Shown one piece after another: positions 4,574 through 14,608 of a DNA stretch of 20,733 nucleotides. The notes beneath the pieces are model-generated. The model did no database searches and was not told where the DNA came from. It worked only from the letters and a program-made list of their open reading frames with translations. A program made the position numbers and the translations under genes. The stretch's first letter is position 1, and the number at the start of each line of letters is the position of its first letter. This stretch comes from Physocladia obscura (taxonomy: Eukaryota; Chytridiomycota; Chytridiomycetes; Chytridiales; Chytriomycetaceae), in NCBI GenBank assembly GCA_027596945.1, contig JADGJH010000336.1:1-20733 (forward strand), in the 5' to 3' direction.

Positions 4574-4621
4574 TACCATGAGTGATTAATCAAAGCGCCA
4601 CTTTCCAACTTAATCTGCAAA

Positions 4622-5605
4622 ATGGTCTCGTATTTTCAAATCGCTTTGACAGCCTCGCTGTTTATTATGCAGCGCGTGTTTGCAATCACAACACCACCGT
4701 CCGGAGCCATCACGGTCTCAAAATCTGGAGGTGGCGGTAAATACAGCACGATTCAAGCCGCTGTGAACTCTCTTCCCGATGCGGGATCTGCCGTTATTTT
4801 TATATACCCTGGAACTTATACCGAAATGGTGTACATTACCAGAACTGGTCCTTTGACGATTTACGGTTCTGCAGCCAGTGAAACCACATACACGGGAAAC
4901 ACTGTCCTGCTGACAAACAAGGTTTCGGCTGTTGCCATAGGTTCCGATGACTTGAGTGCTCCGCTCCGCGTTCACAAAAGTAATTTCAACCTCATCAACG
5001 TGAATGTCCAGAACACATTCAACACTGGAATTGGTGTTGCTGTTTCGTATTACGGAACCGAAATTGGCACATACGGATGCCAATTTCTTGCCTACCAAGA
5101 TACCTTGCTGACCGAGACTGGCGAGCATTACTTTGTGAACACTTATATCGAAGGGGCCGTTGACTATATTTTCGGGCAATACAGCAAGGCATACTTCCAG
5201 TCAGTTATTCTTGCTTCTACTCGCCATGGATACGTCACAGCAAACGGTCGCGCCAGTTCCAGCGATCCTGGTGCTTATGTTTTCAACGGTTGCACTGTCA
5301 CACTGTCGTCAAAAGCCGTTGCTGGGACTGCTGGAACAGTTTACTTGGGTCGTCCGTGGGGAGCATATGCACGCGTTATCTACATGTATTCTGATCTTAC
5401 TGATGTTCTAAACTCTGCTGGATGGTCTGAATGGACTGCTGGAGTGTATCCAAGTGACGTGTCGTTCTATGAATATAACAACAGTGGAGCAGGTGCATGG
5501 AATTCTAACCGTGCAAAGTTCGCACAAGAGATTTCTGCTACTGTTGCAAACGAATACTCGTTGAAAAATTTTTTCAGTTCTACTTCATGGATCTTGACGT
5601 TGTAA
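4622..5605 (+). CDS. Secreted pectin methylesterase (CE8), copy 1
   Basis: This single-exon gene gives 327 residues. It hydrolyses methyl esters of polygalacturonate, giving pectate and methanol, outside the cell. A signal peptide is clear: a hydrophobic stretch to residue 20, with likely cleavage after MQRVFA (residue 21). The right-handed beta-helix family motifs are all present: GGGGKYSTIQAA near 36-47, the oxyanion-side Gln130 in VNVQNTF, acid/base Asp160 in YQDTL, nucleophile Asp181 in GAVDYIFGQ, and the substrate Arg244 in LGRPWG. Length is normal for a fungal single-domain enzyme with no inhibitor pro-region. The start is fixed by the signal peptide; TATAAG lies 54 nt upstream. A close paralogue at 13628-14608 has the same orientation, and the mobile-element relic lies between them. 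Confidence 0.95.
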   Translation: MVSYFQIALTASLFIMQRVFAITTPPSGAITVSKSGGGGKYSTIQAAVNSLPDAGSAVIFIYPGTYTEMVYITRTGPLTIYGSAASETTYTGNTVLLTNKVSAVAIGSDDLSAPLRVHKSNFNLINVNVQNTFNTGIGVAVSYYGTEIGTYGCQFLAYQDTLLTETGEHYFVNTYIEGAVDYIFGQYSKAYFQSVILASTRHGYVTANGRASSSDPGAYVFNGCTVTLSSKAVAGTAGTVYLGRPWGAYARVIYMYSDLTDVLNSAGWSEWTAGVYPSDVSFYEYNNSGAGAWNSNRAKFAQEISATVANEYSLKNFFSSTSWILTL

Positions 5606-5685
5606 TTTTGAGTCTTAAGCAGTTGGTTTATTATTATTTCTTGGCTGAATCAGAACCCCTCACACTTTCTCTGTGAAAGTTTCCT

Positions 5686-5691
5686 AATAAA
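5686..5691 (+). terminator. Polyadenylation signal of esterase copy 1
   Basis: AATAAA occurs 81 nt after the stop codon. A small hairpin-capable inverted repeat (ACTTTC, 5-nt loop, GAAAGT, 5664-5680) precedes it; its meaning is unknown. Confidence 0.5.
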
Positions 5692-5817
5692 ATTTTGAAT
5701 TGTGACTCGCACCTCTACGGCCCTCTCAAAAAACTCAACTTTGAATATTGTTGGGATTGTTCACTCAAATATAGTGACGCACAACGTGTTTGATTTTAGT
5801 GGGCATTCTAACTGAAA

Positions 5818-5829
5818 AATGACGTCATT
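5818..5829. other. Perfect 12-bp palindrome at left end of the element
   Basis: AATGACGTCATT is a perfect palindrome containing the CRE/ATF-type core TGACGTCA. It ends 67 bp outside the first codon of gene X. A different palindrome occupies a similar place beside X' at the right end. It may be a promoter site for X, a terminus-associated signal, or host sequence. Confidence 0.35.
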
Positions 5830-5896
5830 CAAACAACTATTTATTTGAATTCGTTGATAGTTAATATTATTTATTTTCTTTTATATTATTAAAACA

Positions 5897-6525
5897 ATGA
5901 CTGTTGCAATTCCATCCACAAGTGTAAAAAATCGATTCTTGATGACCCTCCCAATTGGAACAATCTATAAAAACCCACGGAATGAACACCACTATGAAGT
6001 ACAAGAGCGAAAATTAATACCACCTTATCTAAAGTGGGAGTACCATACTTTGATTCAAATCAACCTGTTGTTATTGAAGTACCCAATAAATGGATGAAAA
6101 TGGCCAATCTGGCAAGAGTCAATATCAACCAATCCATGAAGGAAAGAATTCATGAACTGGAAGAGACTGTCAAATAATTGCAGTCAGAACTGAGAGAGGC
6201 AACTGACCCAGATTTTGACAAAATTATTGAAATTAAGCACTCATTTCTGGATAAGATTAAACAATTAATGAATGGGAATGAATTCTTTGAGACAGAATCC
6301 GAAATTTACTTTGTAGACAAGAACTTGGTGTATTATACACAAACAAAGTGAAATACTGACAACAAAGCAAGAGTGTTGAGAATAAAGACTGAAATGATGA
6401 GAAAGGGAGATACTAACCTGTGCAAGGAGCTCCATGATAATCAGCCTGCAATTCAAAAGAGATTGTATCACCATTTGAAGCAAAATGTTGATGAAAAAAA
6501 GATTTTCTCAATGAAGCAGCGTTAA
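5897..6525 (+). pseudogene. Gene X (left copy), inward-reading terminal gene, broken
   Basis: The frame opens at ATG 5897 with MTVAIPSTSVKNRF and is broken by a frameshift near 6030, a TAA at 6175-6177 and a TGA at 6349-6351; the final stop is 6523-6525. The remaining frame aligns throughout with the minus-strand X' copy at 12618-13225. Conserved blocks include LPIGTIYK, GVPYF, NINQSMKE, 'L-M-N-G-N-x-x-F-E-T', and a C-terminal block ending in GDTNLCKELHDNQPAIQK. The middle is charged and helical, with a possible short coiled coil at HELEETV. I recognise no family. About 208 codons is the likely full length. Its stop codon overlaps the stop of gene Y, which comes from the other strand, by two bases. 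Position just inside both termini would suit a replication or terminus-related protein, but that is a guess. Confidence 0.55.
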
Positions 6526-6818
6526 TCTCCTTCTGATTCGAGTCCTTGTGACAGGTATATATGCTCAAGAAAGTGTCCAATAGCATCAGCACTTGAACTC
6601 CTTGTATTATTTGATTCTTGTTGTTTGGTGGTTATGTACACACAGTTGGATTGTTCAAGTTCAGTGAAAACAGGCTCACCTGGACTCGATGCACATTTAG
6701 TGTGTACTGTTGATTCAATGATTGTGTCATTGGACATCAATTTGATGCTTGTGATTATAGCAACAGAGAGTAGTCTTGTTAATGCAATTAGTGCTACAAC
6801 CCATTTGTTACACTTATT
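6522..6818 (-). CDS. Gene Y (left copy): in-frame extension after the zinc-finger gene's stop
   Basis: Directly after the TGA of the RING/TRAF-type ORF, the same frame stays open for 98 codons to a TAA at 6524-6522. It starts without an ATG; the first ATG is about 27 codons in. The N-terminal part, WVVALIALTRLLSVAIIT, is hydrophobic enough for a membrane span. Later blocks (TKCASSPGEPVF, then 'C-V-Y-I-T-T-K', then an acidic C-terminus ending SEGD) align with Y' at 12322-12621. The family is unrecognised. It could be expressed by readthrough as a C-terminal extension of the zinc-finger protein, from an internal ATG as a short protein, or not at all. The right copy also has a stop just before the same point. 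Confidence 0.4.
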   Translation of the reverse strand, partial: NKCNKWVVALIALTRLLSVAIITSIKLMSNDTIIESTVHTKCASSPGEPVFTELEQSNCVYITTKQQESNNTRSSSADAIGHFLEHIYLSQGLESEGD

Positions 6819-7340
6819 TCAATAAATTAATGCTACAGCATCATGAGTTGTTAGCAACCCTCCTTCATTCAAATCATTTAATTCAATCTTATATCCTTGC
6901 TTGTTGAGGCCCCATCTGTTTGATTCTATTGGAGCCAAGTTGCGTTGGACTATTCTAATCTTGCATTTTGTTTCAAAGTGACTTTGTAATGTTTTCCTTG
7001 ATATCTTCTTTTGACATATGAAGCACTTGTGTTTCTTGTAGTCACAGTCTTCAACATGTTCATCAAGATTCCATTTCAACACTTTAAACTTACAGTTTTC
7101 ATTGGTACACGATTCCAAGTGTGGCATTAAAGTAACTTGCAACTGTTTATTATGAAACAATGATTCTGTCTTGCATTGCAGGCATTTTTGGCCCAGTTGA
7201 TGGTGGCATTTGATACAAGCAAAGTGTGGATTTGAATCTTTGGTGCATTGGATAATAGGAAAGTTTAGATGCTCAAAGCAAACACAGCATGTTAAATCAG
7301 ATTGTTTAATCTTCATTGAATACTTTATTTCTTGTTCCAT
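6819..7340 (-). CDS. RING plus TRAF/SIAH-type zinc-finger protein, intact ORF in the element
   Basis: The ATG at 7340 gives 173 residues with no interruption. Residues about 16-57 form a C3HC4 RING: CCVC, then QC, then HFACIKC, then CLQC. It is followed by two TRAF/SIAH-like zinc units, 'C-T-N-E-N-C ... H-V-E-D-C' and 'C-F-I-C ... H-F-E-T-K-C'. This order is typical of SIAH/TRAF-like E3 ubiquitin ligases, also known as captured genes in large DNA viruses. The likely role is ubiquitin transfer in the host cell, substrate unknown. The C-terminal half lies inside the left inverted repeat, so a second copy of that part, without the RING, occurs at 12025-12315. An intact frame beside a ruined replicase is unusual. 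The in-frame TTG upstream (7355) is a less likely start. Confidence 0.7.
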   Translation of the reverse strand: MEQEIKYSMKIKQSDLTCCVCFEHLNFPIIQCTKDSNPHFACIKCHHQLGQKCLQCKTESLFHNKQLQVTLMPHLESCTNENCKFKVLKWNLDEHVEDCDYKKHKCFICQKKISRKTLQSHFETKCKIRIVQRNLAPIESNRWGLNKQGYKIELNDLNEGGLLTTHDAVALIY

Positions 7341-7400
7341 TCTTATAATACACAAATATTTTTAATTTTAAGAAAAAATCCAAAGATTTGGACAAAATGT

Positions 7401-7691
7401 TTATGCCCTCTGACCCAACTCAATGTTCTCTTGTCTCAAAATTAGCCGCAGATTCCAATAGGCATTAATGTTCTTGAAGTCTTCATCTGTGGTATGCTGG
7501 CATCTTGGCCTGATGTCGTCAATCTCATATCCCTTCATTATCTTACCATCAGGTATACCAAGATGCTTGAATAATTGTTGTCTCGTTAGAAAAGTATGCT
7601 TCAAACTATATTCATCAGAGCATCCCTTTCAAACAATGTAATTGATTACTCTAACTGCTTCTATCCTCTTTTGTTTGAGGTCATCCTTCAT
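7401..7691 (-). pseudogene. HNH-like C-terminal tail of the polymerase-helicase gene
   Basis: This is the 3' part of the large minus-strand gene, reached from the helicase frame by one frameshift near 7690 and broken by a TGA at about 7631. It ends in TAA at 7403-7401. The peptide contains 'Y-E-I-D-D-I-R-P' followed about 20 residues later by 'N-A-Y-W-N-L-R-L-I-L-R-Q-E-N-I-E-L-G'. This resembles the HNH pattern 'E-I-D-H-I-x-P ... x-x-N-L-Q-P-L-x-x-x-x-N-x-x-K-G', with the first catalytic His replaced by Asp. If truly HNH-derived, the intact ancestor could have nicked or cut DNA as part of a replicase-recombinase. The match is short, so this call is tentative. Confidence 0.4.
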
Positions 7692-8828
7692 GTCACATTC
7701 TCTTTTCTTTCTTTGCTTAATCTTGTCAAAGTCTGTATTCTTTGTCTCTTTATGCTATACACCATCATTAACAACATTAATGTATCTTTTTTAGTGGTTC
7801 TATTTATTGCTGTGTATGGCACGTCTTTCTTCATCTGGCCCCATTCATGAATTGTAAATGGTTCATTTATTGAATCACCTTGTACACAATGGATTGTCAA
7901 ATAATAATTTACCCAAAAGTACAACTGAAATTACTCATCTGTAATCTCAATCTTGTCTTTGGTCACTGTATCTTCTAATAATAACAGGGGCTCAATCTTT
8001 TTCACTACAAATATTGCATTATTGACAAGGCCAAGTTTCTTGTAGTTTCTATTGGAAATCACTGGAGTTCCAACCATTAAAAGAACAACTTGTGAGTTTG
8101 GGTCATCCTTATTTGCTTCTATTCTAATCTTTTTCTTTTTCTTTAGTTTGTCTTGTTGCATCATGATTTCATTAATTTGTTTTCTCTTATTTTGAGTTTA
8201 TACTAGGTTTGCTCTGGTAAACAAGTGCTTGTTGTCAAAATCACCTGGATTCAATGTGTGCACAATATCAAATAGTACTGTTACTGAGTTATCTGAATGG
8301 TGATTAATCAAGAGTTTTGTTATACTGTAATCAACCAGTTCCTTCAATGCCATTGTGTATAGGTAATCATATTTTCTGTTGTTCCTTTCAACTCCACCAA
8401 GTTGTTGGTAGTCCCCAACTAATACAAACTTGACTTTTGCTTGCAGTTTCACATAATACAAGATTTCATAAATTGCTGCTCTCAGCATACCAACTTCATC
8501 AATGAAAATGTATTGATATCTGTTGGCTGCTTTTCCTGCTTCTTTCAAGTTGCACTTGTCATTATTGTCAATATGAAAGAAAAGGTGGACTGTATGACCA
8601 TTAATCAATTGTGCTGCCTTGTTTGTACTTGCCAAAAGTACAAATGAACCTGGCTCCAATTCTTTAATGGTTTCTCTCACTTCTGTTGATTTTCCTGTAC
8701 CAGCCATTCCAGTCAATAGTCGACATTCCAGTCTATCTTGAGTTGGAATCCAGTCTTTATTCTCAAGTTGAAAAATATATGTACTCTTGAATGGCTCAGA
8801 AATCTTGTATTCTTTTGGGTAATGCTTC
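7691..8828 (-). pseudogene. SF1 (Pif1/RecD-like) helicase domain of the large gene, broken
   Basis: Minus-strand pieces carry the ordered motifs of a superfamily 1B helicase: Walker A GMAGTGKST at about 8710-8684, Walker B FIDEVGM near 8506-8486, motif III GDYQQLGGVE near 8416-8387, a C-terminal 'V-G-T-P-V-I-S-N-R-N ... N-N-A-I-F-V' block near 8085-8010, and motifs V/VI 'T-I-H-C-V-Q-G-D-S ... Y-T-A-I-N-R-T' near 7895-7800. Frame is kept across the stop near 8195 and another at about 7933, so decay here is mostly point mutation. Upstream, the frame continues through 'W-I-P-T-Q-D-R' into the polymerase palm without a gap for a promoter or new start. The helicase was therefore probably translated as a fusion downstream of the polymerase. 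Confidence 0.75.
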
Positions 8829-11170
8829 TACCTAATAATTACCAAAACCTGGTTCACATTCAACATCATTGCCAACTTCCACAACAACACAATCAGTCTT
8901 TAACTTGACAATTCTGCCTCCCATTTTCATTGCCAATTGATGTAACATCATGTTGCCATTATCAATGACTTGCCAATATATTGGAATTGTATTAAAATGT
9001 TTAGAGATTCATTCTTTATGGAAATGTTGTACAACTTTGGGTCTTGTGATATGCATGAATACACTATATTGTCATTTGAGAAAAATTATTGAACTGCATC
9101 ATTCAAACTCATTGTAAATCTATCAGTCTGCTTCTTTTCACTTCTCTTATTCAAACATCCAACAAAGCAGTTTATTATTAATTTGGCATTATCACTGCTC
9201 TTGTCATAAATCCTCTTTACAAAATCATTGAAATAGTCTGCCTTTAATGTCTTACTTGGGATTATTTCATAGACAATTTTTATTGGGACTCCAATCATTT
9301 GACAATATCTTAGTATGGGTGCCGAATACCATCGAGTGCCTTGTAGTTTCAACATAATAGAAACCTGTTTTTAGTTTACCAGAATAAGGTTTGACTTCAT
9401 CAAAAATGCTGAACACTGACCAAGGGACTTCATTCTTCATTGTCAAGCATGATGTATGGCATTTCTGAATATCAAAGCTCCTTAGATTTACAGTCTCTAA
9501 TAGTTCATAAAATGTATCGACCATGGCTCCTTTCACACAGTTGAAGAATATTGAATGAGTCACCTGATTGAATGTACTCTCAATGATGTCATCTCTCTTG
9601 TATATTTGGAACGCCTCCAAAACCAAACTGATAAGATTTTGGTTTCTAAATGGAATCATTAATGCTTTTGATACTTGCAGGGACTCTTGATAATGCTTGT
9701 TGACTTCTATGATGACATTGTTCTTGTATTCAATTTGAACTATATGGCTGGCATTTCCTTGTGTCTTGTACACTGTTTGTTTGGTCTGAGCAAAGTACAC
9801 AACCAAATCTGAAAGGTCTGCTTTGTTTGTATATATAACATTGCAGTTATCAAGTTTGTTTAAAGACTAATATGCAACATTTAATAAAGGGTTGATTATT
9901 CCATCAAATGTATTCACTTGCTTCTCCTTGCTCTTGAAGACTCTTGTGTTGTTGGTATTATTTGTTCTCTCAGAAGCAATAATATTCCTTCTGAGCTTGT
10001 CTTTCAAAACAGGATACATGTGGTTGTTGGAAACAATGTAAATTAAACATGGAGCATGGTGATTTCTGACTTTGGGAATGTGCTGGCAAAATATGTCAAA
10101 CTCTAAATCCATTGCATACAAGCAGATTCTGTACTTTTCACAGAATCTAACTACTTGAATAGTTGTTACTCCCGTATTAATCTCGCCTTCTTCAAAAATG
10201 TTCATCAAGCTGTCAAATGTTACTCCTTCAATGTGTTTTGAATATGTGATTATTAAATGTTGATAAACAGAAATGTTTTAATTTGTAAAGTTTGGTCAAG
10301 ATTTAAATAGTGGTAGTTTAAAATACTCCCAAACATTCTTTGCTCCAATAATGCTACTTGTTGATATGGTACTGGTTGTATAGTGTAATCAATATCTAGT
10401 ATATCACAGCCATATGGCTGCCTCAGCATACTCAGTGGTTAAAGTGTCAAGGTGTTGTTCAATTAAATGGTCAGGAATATCTCAAATGATTCTGGTCTTG
10501 CTGTCATTGTAATCATAATTGCCGTAATGTATCACATATTTGGATTCATAAGTCACAATAACTCTGTGAGAAGAGAGTTGGAAGATAACTCAATACATAG
10601 TCAATGTGCCTTTCTTTTTGAGCATCAAATATGGCAAATGGCCTCTTTCTTTTTGAAATGTCCATTCATTGCTCCTTTCTTGATGATTCAGGTGAATGTG
10701 GTCTCATTCTTTTCAAAACATTGTTAACAACTTCCGTACCCCTGTTTTGAAGCTGTTTCATTGTCTTGTTAGTTTTCTTGATGAAAGTATTATCTAAAGT
10801 ACAAATACAGTTACCAAAAATTGCTGCTTTATTGCTCCAAATGAGATTTGTAATGTGTGATTGCAACTGCTTGTGTTCCTTCTCATCATGTGGAAGCTTG
10901 AACTGGTTTAAAATGGTGCTACTTCTCCTCTTAATGGTGATAAACTGACCCTTGTAAGTCAAGGCAAAGTTGTTTGGTTCAAATAGCTGTATACTTTGGC
11001 AGAAATCACGTACACTTTCCAACAAGAACCTGTTGACTATTATGAAAGAAAATAAGTTTTCAAATTTAATTCAGTTTTTTTTCAAAGGCTTCAAATTTTG
11101 TCTAATCTAATGGTGAGTTGACATTTGAACATACTGGGAATGCATTGTGAATAAGTTCTGTTGTGTTCAT
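8829..11170 (-). pseudogene. Family B DNA polymerase-like region of the large gene, broken
   Basis: The frame starts at ATG 11170 (MNTTELIHNAF) and is interrupted by a TAG near 11105 and further stops and frameshifts. Recognisable pieces, in order: an N-terminal domain (11025-10666); a region with FCEKYRICLYAMDLEF and the tell-tale NHMYPV (10208-9867); palm motif A in 'R-S-F-D-I-Q-K-C-H-T-S' (Asp codon about 9473); 'F-S-I-F-D-E-V-K-P-Y ... G-F-Y-Y-V-E-T'; GTRWYSAPILRYC; motif B AKLIINCFVGCLNK at about 9190-9145; and motif C with KTDCVVVE at about 8900-8877, where D-T-D would be expected. No exonuclease DxE motif is evident. K-T-D in motif C suggests a polymerase domain already inactive or unusual before this copy decayed. 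Frame continuity and order indicate one gene with the helicase. Its ATG faces the plus-strand ORF at 11246 across 75 bp. Confidence 0.65.
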
Positions 11171-11245
11171 CTTTAGACAAAAGAAACTTTACACTTCAGA
11201 TTTTTTCTAATTAGACAAAAAGTCTATTTTTGGAAATTCTAGAAT

Positions 11246-12035
11246 ATGCAGAATTTTACAATACAGAAAATACAACTGAAAATGCCACTTGATGCCTACC
11301 GTGATGCTTTCATCAAGTGGATGAGGGGAAAGCTAGCCAAACCAGCTAATGATTTACATCAAGATTTGCGCACTATCAAACTACCCATCATCAGAACCAT
11401 TCTCACCAAATTTGATGCTCTACAAGTCACTACAAATGGAACAACAAGTGACGCTGAGAGTGGCACACTTGTTGGAGAAAATACAGCAACATATCAAGGC
11501 TCAGATTATGTGGCACAATCTCAACAAGGTGGTTCTCCCCGCCCACTTCAACAACTTCTCCTGCTTCAACAGCACCATCTCCTATCCAACCAATCCACTT
11601 GGAGGCATATATTCCAGATTTGATAGCTCAATTTACATCAACTTCGACTACCACTACTATTGATAAGTTTGCAGAAGTCGAACCGTTTCTCTCAAAGTAT
11701 GCTCCCTAACCACTTGCAAGTATGCAGTTGCGAATTCCGAGTTTAACAATACGTATGATACATCAGAATCAAAGAAACGCCGTGATTATCAAAGCAATGA
11801 GCTTGCTGAAATGAAAATCAAGCTCATGGAACAAATCAGAAAGAGCCTTTACATGGCTGCAGCACAAGAAACGAAAGTAAAATTTTACAACTTGCAGGTG
11901 GGGGCACGTTTTATCCAGCTTCTGGACAAGTTTTGCAAGAATGACCTTCTGAAAGGCAAACAGTTTGCAGAGTTTTTAGCATATATTGACCAGGAGTTGC
12001 ACTTGAAGCAAGCTTCTTTCTATTTATACAAATGA
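11246..12035 (+). pseudogene. Unidentified broken ORF divergent from the polymerase gene
   Basis: ATG 11246 opens MQNFTIQKIQLKMP and continues about 95 codons. A frameshift near 11535 is needed to continue into a Ser/Thr/Pro-rich linker (TSTTSPASTAPSPIQPIH) and a following acidic segment ending at a TAA at 11707-11709. A second shift leads to 'S-E-S-K-K-R-R-D' (nuclear-signal-like) and a helical C-terminal region ending at TGA 12033-12035. The combined length would be about 260 residues. The N-terminal part (YRDAFIKWMRGKL) and C-terminal part (FIQLLDKFCKNDLLKGKQF) look alpha-helical; no family is recognised. The architecture of two helical domains joined by an S/T/P linker would suit a DNA-binding or accessory replication protein, but that is inference. 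It ends just before the right inverted repeat begins. Confidence 0.4.
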
Positions 12036-12315
12036 AAACTGTAAAATGCAAGTATTGAAATGGAATCTGAATGAACATGTTGATGATTGTGATTATAAAA
12101 AGATGAAATGCTTTGTTTGTCAACAGAAAATGATATCTCGCAGGACAATGGTTTCACATTTCAATAATAATAAATGTAAAATTGGAGTTATTGAACAAAA
12201 GTTTGTGAATGTTGAATTGAATGGATATGATTCAGAAGGCAAAGGATTTAAAATAAATTTGGACATGCTGAATGATGGAGTGTTGACAACTGAGCATGCT
12301 GCCGTCATAGTATAA
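12025..12315 (+). pseudogene. TRAF/SIAH zinc-finger tail (right-arm copy without the RING)
   Basis: From 'Y-T-N-E-N-C-K' the frame matches the C-terminal half of the RING/TRAF protein at 6819-7340, including 'V-L-K-W-N-L-N-E-H-V-D-D-C' and CFVCQQKMISRRT. It ends in TAA at 12313-12315. The RING half is missing because homology begins at the inner edge of the inverted repeat. The first ATG is 12046 (MQVLKWN), so a 89-residue zinc-finger peptide lacking the first Cys pair could be made, but more likely this is a non-functional repeat copy. An insertion in the second finger region (NNNKC) and a shorter linker distinguish it from the left copy. Confidence 0.5.
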
Positions 12316-12321
12316 AAGTGA

Positions 12322-12621
12322 GTGCAACAAGTGGATTATGTCACCCATGCACTTACAAAAATTCCAACAGTTGCAATAATAACAACCACTAAATTGCTGC
12401 CAAATGGAGCCATGGCAGAGACAACAATAAAAATGCAATGCGCCTCGAAATTGGCCAAACCTGTGTTCATAGAACTTGGGGAGTGTAGCACAATTTATGT
12501 GAACACAAAACGTTGTCAAGGAAACATAGAAAGCGGTGATAGAATTCAAGAATTTCTAGGCCGTATGTTTGCTTCAGATAGAGCTATACTATCTGCATTC
12601 TCAGACTCTGACAAAGATTAA
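12322..12621 (+). CDS. Gene Y' (right copy), open frame of unknown function
   Basis: An uninterrupted frame of 99 codons follows the zinc-finger tail in the same frame, after TAA (12313-12315) and TGA (12319-12321). It has no ATG until MAETTIKMQCAS, about 30 codons in; a GTG occurs at 12322. It aligns with the left Y: 'A-L-T-K-I-P-T-V-A-I-I-T', 'K-P-V-F-I-E-L-G', 'I-Y-V-N-T-K', 'I-Q-E-F-L-G', and an acidic end (SDSDKD). The N-terminal stretch is less hydrophobic than in the left copy, which weakens a membrane-span reading. The stop overlaps the X' stop by two bases. No family is recognised; expression is doubtful without an upstream start. Confidence 0.35.
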   Translation: MQQVDYVTHALTKIPTVAIITTTKLLPNGAMAETTIKMQCASKLAKPVFIELGECSTIYVNTKRCQGNIESGDRIQEFLGRMFASDRAILSAFSDSDKD

Positions 12622-13225
12622 CGTCTCTTTCTTTCAACAATCTTTTCCTTGCCTATCTCCTTCTTCAAGTGATAGTATAGTTTCTTCTGGATGGCAGGCT
12701 GGTTGTCATGGAGTTCTTTGCAGAGGTTAGTATCTCCCTTCATCATATCAGTCTTGATTCGTTTATTCTCTTTTTATTATCACCAGAGGTCTTCTTTCTC
12801 AGATAATAAACTAAATTGTTATCAACAAAAAAGAGCTCAGAGTGAGTTTCAAAGTATTGATTTCCATTCATTAATTGATTTATTTTATCCAATAATGAAT
12901 GATTTATTTCAATAACAGATAGTTTGTCAAATTCAGGGTCATTGCTTGTTGGAAATCCTTCACTGTTCCTTCCAATTCAACAATGCATTCCTTCATTGAT
13001 TGATTGATGTTGGCTCGTTGAGGGTTAATAATCTTCATGAATTTCTCTGGTATATCAATAACAAGAGGCTCAGTTGGGCCAAAATAAGGAACACCATATT
13101 TCGAAAGAGTTGTATTTATTCTTTTCGTAATTGTGTTGATTTCGAGGGTCTTTATAGATGGTTCCGATTGGTAGTGTCTTTAAGAATCAATTTCGTACCG
13201 TAGTCGCTGGAATAATTAAAGTCAT
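12618..13225 (-). pseudogene. Gene X' (right copy), broken
   Basis: The ATG at 13225 opens MTLIIPATTVRN and meets TGA at codon 13, at a point where the left copy has CGA. After that the frame again follows the left X: 'L-P-I-G-T-I-Y-K-D-P-R-N', KYGVPYFGPTEPLVID, NINQSMKE. Further breaks follow near 12905 and 12765, and the final block GDTNLCKELHDNQPAIQK ends at TAA 12620-12618. Both X copies are broken at different positions, so neither can be the functional source. The C-to-T change at a former CpG is of the type produced by methylation-driven decay. Confidence 0.55.
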
Positions 13226-13278
13226 TGTTTGATACTATTGCTAAAGAAAATAAAAATACAATTATATCGTTTTATTTC

Positions 13279-13329: not shown

Positions 13330-13524
13330 AACGAATCAATTCAACATTTTATTAGAGAATTCACACTGAGTTGCCGCACAGGGCACGAAAACAACCCCCA
13401 AAAATTTTATAACAAAAAACTGTTTCCTTAGCTTAAAAAAAAAAAACAAACAGTACAAATTTCTCGAGACAAAAGAACTTAATTTCTTTTTCATCTGACT
13501 TTATAAATTTGGATCAAGTGGTTG

Positions 13525-13565: not shown

Positions 13566-13584
13566 GATTACACAAAAAATTTCA

Positions 13585-13590
13585 TATAAA
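13585..13590 (+). promoter_or_regulatory. TATA box of the second pectin methylesterase
   Basis: TATAAAG begins 43 nt before the start codon, a strong TATA match at a plausible distance. Confidence 0.5.
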
Positions 13591-13627
13591 GGCTGGTGAT
13601 TACCCGAGCTACCATAGCTCTACAAAA

Positions 13628-14608
13628 ATGAATTCAATTCTTGGAAATATTATGGCTGCTCTGCTGATGATCGGGCAAGTCTCAGCAATTACAACACCGC
13701 CGTCGGGAGCCATCACGGTCTCAAAAGCTGGAGGTGGTGGAAAATATATGACAATTCAAGCCGCTATCAATTCTCTTGCGGACACGGGAGCCGTGACAAT
13801 TTTTATTTATCCGGGAACGTACACTGAGATGGTGTATATTACCAGAACTGGTCCTTTGACGATTTACGGTTCTGCAGCCAGTGAAACGACCTACACTGGT
13901 AACACTGTTCTGCTCACAAATAATGTTTCTGCTGTTGCTATCGGCGCCGATGACTTGAGTGCTCCACTTCGCGTTCACAAAAGTAATTTCACTCTCATCA
14001 ACGTGAATGTCCAGAACACATTCAACACTGGAATTGGTGTTGCTGTTTCGTATTACGGAACTTATATCGGGTCATACGGATGCCAGTTCCTTGCATACCA
14101 AGACACTTTGTTGACCGAGACTGGCGAACATTATTTTGAAAATACATATATTGAAGGCGCTGTCGACTATATTTTCGGACAATACAGCAAGGCGTACTTT
14201 CAATCTGTTATTCTTGCTTCAATTGGCCATGGTTATGTCACAGCGAATGGTCGCGCCAGCTCAACTGACACTGGCGGGTATGTTTTCAACGGCTGTACAG
14301 TTACAGCTTCGTCAAAGGCGGTTTCCGGAACGGTCGGGAAAGTCTACTTGGGGCGTCCATGGGGAGCATATGCTCGTGTTATCTACATGTATTCTGATCT
14401 CACAGATGTTCTCAACCTTGCTGGATGGTATGAATGGACTGTTGGAGTTTATCCAAGTCATGCGTCGTTCTTTGAATATAACAACAGCGGAGCGGGTGCT
14501 TGGAATTCTCAGCGTGCGAACTTTTCGCAAGAGATTTCTGCGACTGTTGCGAACGAATATTCATTGGCAAACTTTTTCAGTTCTACTTCTTGGATTTTGA
14601 GTTTGTGA
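13628..14608 (+). CDS. Secreted pectin methylesterase (CE8), copy 2
   Basis: This single-exon gene gives 326 residues, with a signal peptide cleaved probably after 'G-Q-V-S-A' (residue 20). It shares almost the whole mature sequence with copy 1. Catalytic residues are shifted by one: Gln129, acid/base Asp159 in YQDTL, nucleophile Asp180 in VDYIFGQ, Arg243 in LGRPWG. Differences include STRHGY to SIGHGY and EIGTYG to YIGSYG, none at the catalytic core. It should demethylate pectin outside the cell like its neighbour. Same-strand paralogues imply a tandem duplication, later separated by the element. Some blocks are identical at silent sites (14001-14061) while neighbouring blocks differ at many third positions, which suggests local gene conversion. 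Confidence 0.95.
   Translation: MNSILGNIMAALLMIGQVSAITTPPSGAITVSKAGGGGKYMTIQAAINSLADTGAVTIFIYPGTYTEMVYITRTGPLTIYGSAASETTYTGNTVLLTNNVSAVAIGADDLSAPLRVHKSNFTLINVNVQNTFNTGIGVAVSYYGTYIGSYGCQFLAYQDTLLTETGEHYFENTYIEGAVDYIFGQYSKAYFQSVILASIGHGYVTANGRASSTDTGGYVFNGCTVTASSKAVSGTVGKVYLGRPWGAYARVIYMYSDLTDVLNLAGWYEWTVGVYPSHASFFEYNNSGAGAWNSQRANFSQEISATVANEYSLANFFSSTSWILSL

Follow-up and report, generated by a model that had tools for sequence, protein, structure and literature searches.

Transpovirons accompany giant viruses as linear episomes; they share a size of about 7 kb, terminal inverted repeats (TIRs), a Tlr1-like helicase, a zinc-finger protein, a small protein of unknown function and the lack of a capsid (PMC7031253, PMC11788076). 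They are described as having a central tandem repeat of 180-600 nt near the helicase, and are thought to derive from polinton-like viruses (PLVs) through loss of the capsid module (PMC11071308). The Tlr1-like helicases of PLVs and transpovirons combine, in that order, a vOTU protease, the palm of a protein-primed family B polymerase (pPolB) without the first Asp of motif C, an SF1 helicase and a C-terminal nuclease (PMC11071308). PLVs have been reported in the chromosomes of Spizellomyces punctatus and Allomyces, and capsid-less polintons of Rhizophagus are mentioned in the same source (PMC7805220). Here we analyzed a 20,733-nt stretch of Physocladia obscura (contig JADGJH010000336.1; hereafter the window, to which coordinates refer) and found that it holds two decayed, broken copies of one mobile family lying in opposite directions, the core gene of which encodes a Tlr1-like helicase. 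A reading made earlier from the letters of the window, the sequence-only reading, had described a relic of a transpoviron or polinton-like element in fungal-type DNA; its view of the surrounding DNA was borne out and its view of the wider kinship in part, its view of the boundaries was not. Below, C numbers denote Physocladia contigs (the window's contig being C334 in searches of its own genome), L numbers fetched stretches or loci and P numbers related proteins.

That reading had placed a single element of about 7.4 kb at 5850-13270, bounded by inverted arms of 1.24 kb. Comparison of the window with itself did recover inverted arms on either side of the core gene, as 5865-6480 against 13258-12663 (69% over 625 columns, E 2.6e-66) and 7000-7107 against 12137-12027 (77%, E 5e-18), but the boundaries were wrong, and no single element has these arms as its TIRs. 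With matches required to span 120 columns or more, both arms mapped to a single site, a copy's helicase-3' end, in 13 of the 20 other fetched Physocladia stretches (L010, L014-L019, L022-L024, L026-L028); the remaining seven gave no arm 2 match of that length. A 28-row tree of the gene borne on the arms paired the left arm with copy L016 (100/98) and kept the right arm, which has a long branch, apart from that pair. Because both arms correspond to one and the same copy end and differ in lineage, the window contains two different broken copies in opposite orientation. Complete copies, moreover, have short TIRs at other coordinates, and one element with genuine 1.24-kb TIRs is thus very hard to credit. 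We therefore rejected the arms as TIRs. A TIR of the family was found at ~5655-5819, just beyond the former left boundary, and the sequence at ~13334-13404 is a TIR-like end that has decayed. Copy 1 extends from its TIR at ~5655 to ~12010, and copy 2, truncated and inverted, from ~12007 to ~13404. Their features are as follows.

5655..5819, plus strand: TIR of copy 1 at the helicase-3' end, beginning ACCCC; 5656-5819 matches the TIRs of L010, L011, L013, L019, L021, L022 and L026.
5861..6522, plus strand: broken gene of copy 1 for an orphan protein of ~215 aa ('C222'), from the own-genome protein search (C334:5861-6016 and 6004-6522).
6525..7385, minus strand: RING/TRAF-type zinc-finger gene of copy 1 (~290 aa), 72% to the L010 copy over 5-294; zf-TRAF 1.7e-5 and Sina_RING 0.024, both below curated cut-offs.
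7404..7690, minus strand: HNH-like tail of the copy 1 core protein, with the motif EIDDI where other copies keep His.
7784..8827, minus strand: SF1 helicase region of copy 1 (Pif1/Dda/RecD-type), frameshifted, from family matches and frame alignment.
8835..9866, minus strand: pPolB palm region of copy 1, with motifs A, B and altered C present and frames broken, from the motifs and the motif table of relatives.
9867..10277, minus strand: vOTU-like region of copy 1, with the His motif kept (NNHMYP) and Ser (NISVYQHL) in place of the catalytic Cys of relatives (CVYQHL).
10278..11070, minus strand: N-terminal part of the copy 1 core protein, the putative position of a terminal-protein domain, from sequence and frame alignment.
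11219..12035, plus strand: fragments of a divergent accessory gene of copy 1; the L018 insert matches by tblastn at 11219-11479 and 11710-11853, and L018 DNA at 11210-11853.
12005..12030, no strand: junction of copies 1 and 2, read from the sequence; the copy 2 zinc-finger gene starts internally, at about residue 92.
12007..12567, plus strand: 5'-truncated zinc-finger gene of copy 2, 47% to L010 (residues 92-283); zf-TRAF 0.0011, below cut-off.
12621..13258, minus strand: broken ~215-aa orphan gene of copy 2 (C334:12758-13258 and 12621-12782).
13334..13404, minus strand: end of copy 2, TIR-like and decayed; 25 bp match the L022 TIR at 96%, and the remainder was read by eye.

The minus-strand frames of the window carry, N-terminal side first, palm motif A (SFDIQKCHTSCL), motif B (IINCFVGCLNKRS), an altered motif C (KLKTDCVVVE), the SF1 helicase and the HNH-like tail, which upholds the domain order proposed before. 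The helicase piece at window:8198-8827 matched AAA_19 (3.7e-13), AAA_30 (6.7e-13) and PIF1 (1.3e-9) in Pfam and a Dda-like PHROG (2.6e-16). Motif C lacks the first Asp (LKTDC in the window), and DTD was found in none of 25 relatives; the helicase lies C-terminal to the palm, and relatives have a vOTU domain with Cys and His upstream of the palm. The tail is recognized by its motif, a Pfam search for HNH in the window piece having given no match; the motif's His is kept in 17 of 18 motif hits, with the window as the sole exception, and two related copies gave sub-threshold matches (HNH_3 0.0022, HNH_4 0.013). Structure predictions for relatives back the palm (phi29 polymerase) and the helicase (Pif1) and, weakly, the OTU domain; the alignment to phi29 polymerase begins at polymerase residue 4-6, inside the exonuclease part, a domain whose absence is among the traits of Tlr1-like helicases. 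The best structural match in BFVD was H6WBE3 (999 aa, E 1.6e-43, the next being 1.5e-18), an accession of a type that presumably stems from lentille virus material of 2012. Together, the vOTU protease, pPolB palm with altered motif C, SF1 helicase and HNH-like tail constitute a Tlr1-like helicase, with the same domain order as those of PLVs and the Tlr1 element (PMC11071308, PMC3671162, PMC12721341). The statement that no standard named family has this gene set was accordingly wrong in part, as the core fusion, including C-terminal GIY-YIG or HNH nucleases, has already been described for PLVs. Literature searches on fungi, chytrids and transpovirons or polintons, covering open-access titles, abstract openings and passages, turned up the PLVs of Spizellomyces and Allomyces and nothing recognized as the present family. 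What is new is the capsid-less, chromosomally amplified variant, the replication protein being of a kind already known from PLVs and transpovirons.

We then mined the Physocladia assembly (21.76 Mb in 1222 contigs) for further copies. The helicase fragment retrieved 97 protein matches at E <= 0.001, which grouped into 63 loci on 60 contigs, many of them fragments, so that the genome holds at least 63 helicase loci; the orphan protein gave at least 151 matches (150 of 175 candidates scored). Two complete copies with TIRs were found as integrated DNA, of 7155 bp (C307) and 8698 bp (C365), matching transpovirons in size and ends, and a further end pair of ~8.8 kb has decayed ends (C184). TIRs measure ~150-300 bp in L022 (C365), L015 and L019, the left one of L015 lacking its tip, and the aligned tips start in a run of C; no TIR was seen in L122, which belongs to another subfamily. 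Genes common to the complete copies are the helicase, the RING/TRAF-type zinc-finger protein and the ~215-aa orphan. A tblastn search of 29 sequences, namely the window plus 28 loci with six short end pieces among them, placed the zinc-finger protein in 17 and the orphan in 15; the accessory genes upstream of the core gene vary from copy to copy. In Pfam searches, selected open reading frames (ORFs) matched helicase domains and, weakly and below cut-off, zinc fingers of RING/TRAF type (Sina_RING 2.9e-5, zf-TRAF 1.7e-5). Other copies measure 7-9 kb, bear TIRs and keep the gene order, an outcome that the sequence-only reading had named as support.

No capsid or packaging gene was recognized by family scans of the window pieces, as had been reported from the letters, and Pfam scans of selected ORFs, part of those present, placed no capsid, packaging or integrase family above cut-off. 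The fetched chytrid copies likewise carry a Tlr1-like SF1 helicase and no recognized capsid-like gene (family scans of part of the ORFs; tblastn).

Seven end pairs were fetched (C365, C307, C184, C638, C1210, C1148 and C431), and six were inspected for target-site duplications (TSDs) with shifting ends, C184 being excluded because its ends are decayed. Candidates of 5 bp (C365 and C431, low-complexity), 4 bp (C307) and 3 bp (C1210) were obtained, and none for C638 and C1148; these candidates in four of six pairs are near chance level, because the test allowed 12 x 13 end shifts. No TSD length was common to the six pairs, and a 6-bp target repeat was absent from all of them. Four of the pairs delimit short derivatives, of 4285 (C638), 2707 (C1210), 624 (C1148) and 529 bp (C431), which suggest that the TIR ends of the family are recognized in trans. 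The two shortest (L035 and L036; G000:C1148 and C431) consist largely of family TIRs and resemble miniature inverted-repeat transposable elements.

All copies compared are decayed. The copy 1 core gene is broken by stops and frameshifts, its alignment to the Obelidium protein needing several frames and crossing many stops; an uninterrupted core frame was found in none of the window and 22 compared copies, and L122 is likewise broken. In the three youngest copy pairs 64-69% of the differences are at third codon positions (a share of 0.44 to 0.69 across all pairs printed), and this excess demonstrates that the core protein was under selection while the family spread. The observed-to-expected CpG ratio is 0.22 in copy 1 and 0.59 in copy 2, against 0.97-1.02 in the flanks; it is 0.19-0.66 in L009, L010, L022, L023 and L029 and 0.76-0.85 in L019 and L122. 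Stops in the aligned frames comprise 141 TGA, 43 TAA and 31 TAG (with possible double counting where matches overlap). Both the CpG depletion and the TGA-rich stops are consistent with methylated CpG decaying by C-to-T change, and from this signature we infer CpG methylation of repeat copies in this chytrid, at window 5656-11853 and elsewhere.

Related proteins are present in Obelidium and Chytriomyces. In a 33-row tree the chytrid proteins and two environmental ones (P0008, P0009) form one clade (100/100), and the protein of viral contig L037 groups with P0037 outside it. A profile search for wider relatives retrieved 16 proteins, none of them with a transpoviron or Tlr1 name. Relatives of the orphan protein occur in Chytriomyces hyalinus (93%), C. 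cf. hyalinus, C. confervae, C. sp. MP71 and Obelidium; in its tree the Physocladia copies are not one group, and the starred branches force at least three changes. Such interleaving would fit either transfer between genera or old shared lineages. The 716-aa annotated protein P0043 of C. confervae ends in a piece of the family core protein and is perhaps a chimera or a gene-model artefact.

Viral contigs were also searched. With a back-translated helicase pattern, among the best 80 of at least 155 confirmed loci, the N-terminal and palm region was covered as well in L037 only (by matched range), and three motif scans returned 0, 1 (L121) and 0 contigs. L037 encodes a full-length protein of the family with a C-terminal GIY-YIG (7.3e-8). 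L121 encodes the N-terminal part of a family protein (33% to P0033 over 358 columns) together with an A32-type packaging ATPase (Pox_A32 3.4e-17); a match to an adenovirus-type protease stayed sub-threshold (0.11). In neither contig did the putative capsid genes match a Pfam capsid family, a PHROG or a PDB sequence, and they are therefore called by eye only. As regards relatives with capsid and ATPase genes, which were to have told against a capsid-less lineage, the outcome is thus mixed: two distant viral contigs carry virus-type genes, and none was recognized in the chytrid copies.

We consider it likely that the window holds two decayed, opposed copies of a chytrid mobile family whose complete member is 7-9 kb long, with short TIRs, a large Tlr1-like helicase, a zinc-finger protein, a ~215-aa orphan, a variable accessory gene and no recognized capsid, packaging or integrase gene, and which replicates as a protein-primed linear form and inserts by break capture. 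Using protein priming, the large protein would replicate the element as a linear molecule from its C-rich ends, the vOTU domain cutting the priming part free and the helicase opening the template; we infer protein priming from the palm class, the vOTU and the terminal C-run. Chromosome breaks, for which the HNH domain is perhaps responsible, might then take up linear copies present as episomes or intermediates, and capture of this kind would leave no target duplication. The host may silence the insertions by CpG methylation, after which the copies would decay. More tentatively, the family could represent a capsid-less branch of Preplasmiviricota living as a fungal chromosomal transposon without a giant virus, common to genera of the Chytriomycetaceae, self-replicating by protein priming through a single polymerase-helicase-protease-nuclease protein, leaving no target duplication and mobilizing TIR-only derivatives.

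The alternative that survives best, although we regard it as unlikely, is that an encapsidated polinton-like virus left these copies as remnants or has them as satellites, its autonomous form carrying capsid genes and packaging the shorter genomes. L121, with its ATPase, and L037, with adjoining genes read by eye as capsid, are in its favour, as are the PLVs of the chytrid Spizellomyces and of Allomyces (PMC7805220), and the TIR-only derivatives show that action in trans is possible. The fungal PLVs are, like the present family, Preplasmiviricota-type DNA in chromosomes of zoosporic fungi, but they were found through capsid genes, and TSDs of 5-7 bp are given for three elements with a recombinase or integrase (PMC7805220). 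PLV and Tlr1 viral elements are described as larger, with capsid and ATPase genes, whereas the fetched chytrid copies have no recognized capsid-like gene, and L037 falls outside the chytrid clade. Searches of the Physocladia genome with the putative L037 and L121 major capsid proteins and PF04451 gave no match; as they had no positive control, they show little.

A reading less probable still takes the copies for true transpovirons, carried as episomes by a chytrid giant virus yet to be discovered and integrated repeatedly by chance. Size, TIRs, Tlr1-like helicase, zinc-finger protein and small unknown protein do match the transpoviron core set by description (PMC7031253, PMC11788076), and H6WBE3 was far ahead of any other structural match. 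However, the chytrid copies are chromosomal and in high copy in a fungus, and at least 63 loci, together with lineages common to chytrid genera, look like amplification in fungi. The central tandem repeat is missing, Tandem Repeats Finder having detected only arrays of 29-39 bp in the three copies tested (L019, L022 and L029), and a capsid search of the genome for nucleocytoplasmic large DNA viruses, run without a positive control, gave no match. In size, in its ends and in the sort of genes carried the family is like a transpoviron, but it is chromosomal, is not known to accompany a giant virus and lacks the central repeat in the copies tested, and it is not classed as one.

Polintons (Mavericks) carry an RVE integrase and a separate pPolB with DTD and generate a 6-bp TSD. 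The chytrid family shares with them pPolB ancestry, TIRs and chromosomal copies; it is half their size, its scanned ORFs include no integrase family, and it is not classed as a polinton because it has neither a separate pPolB with DTD nor the 6-bp TSD. An ordinary Helitron or a mitochondrial or cytoplasmic linear plasmid can be dismissed with near certainty, given the TIRs, the palm and helicase joined in one protein, the nuclear code, the many chromosomal places and the lack of any Rep/HUH family above cut-off in the scanned pieces (one sub-threshold Gemini_AL1 match, 0.025, in P0008).

If the preferred reading of a capsid-less chytrid family is correct, a lineage with the replication protein of transpovirons has multiplied in fungal chromosomes, and loss of the capsid can give rise to an element that lives as a transposon of a cellular host. 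Culturable fungi would then allow tests of protein priming by these fusion proteins and of their disputed polymerase activity. Surveys keyed to capsid genes miss such elements.

Elsewhere in the same genome, a PolB_2-type polymerase (4.2e-46) at G000:C443:15007-16198 (L117, L118) reads through several TAG codons and is perhaps a mitochondrial plasmid remnant; chytrid mitochondria read TAG as Leu. A separate polinton-like PolB_2 fragment with intact DTDS lies at L119 1840-2220 (G000:C275), near a stretch resembling a DDE transposase end, and a Copia-type reverse transcriptase and integrase-like ORF pair adjoins a copy at L012 3937-5441 (by eye). Rfam and tRNA scans of the window found nothing. 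The host flanks contain the following genes.

4586..5605, plus strand: pectinesterase, outside the element (Pectinesterase 4.5e-42).
13568..14608, plus strand: second pectinesterase, a direct duplicate of the first (Pectinesterase 1.9e-40).

Both element copies occupy the space between these tandem genes, which share a direct repeat of 300 nt at 81%, and GH43-like and GH3-like genes were seen by eye near the pair.

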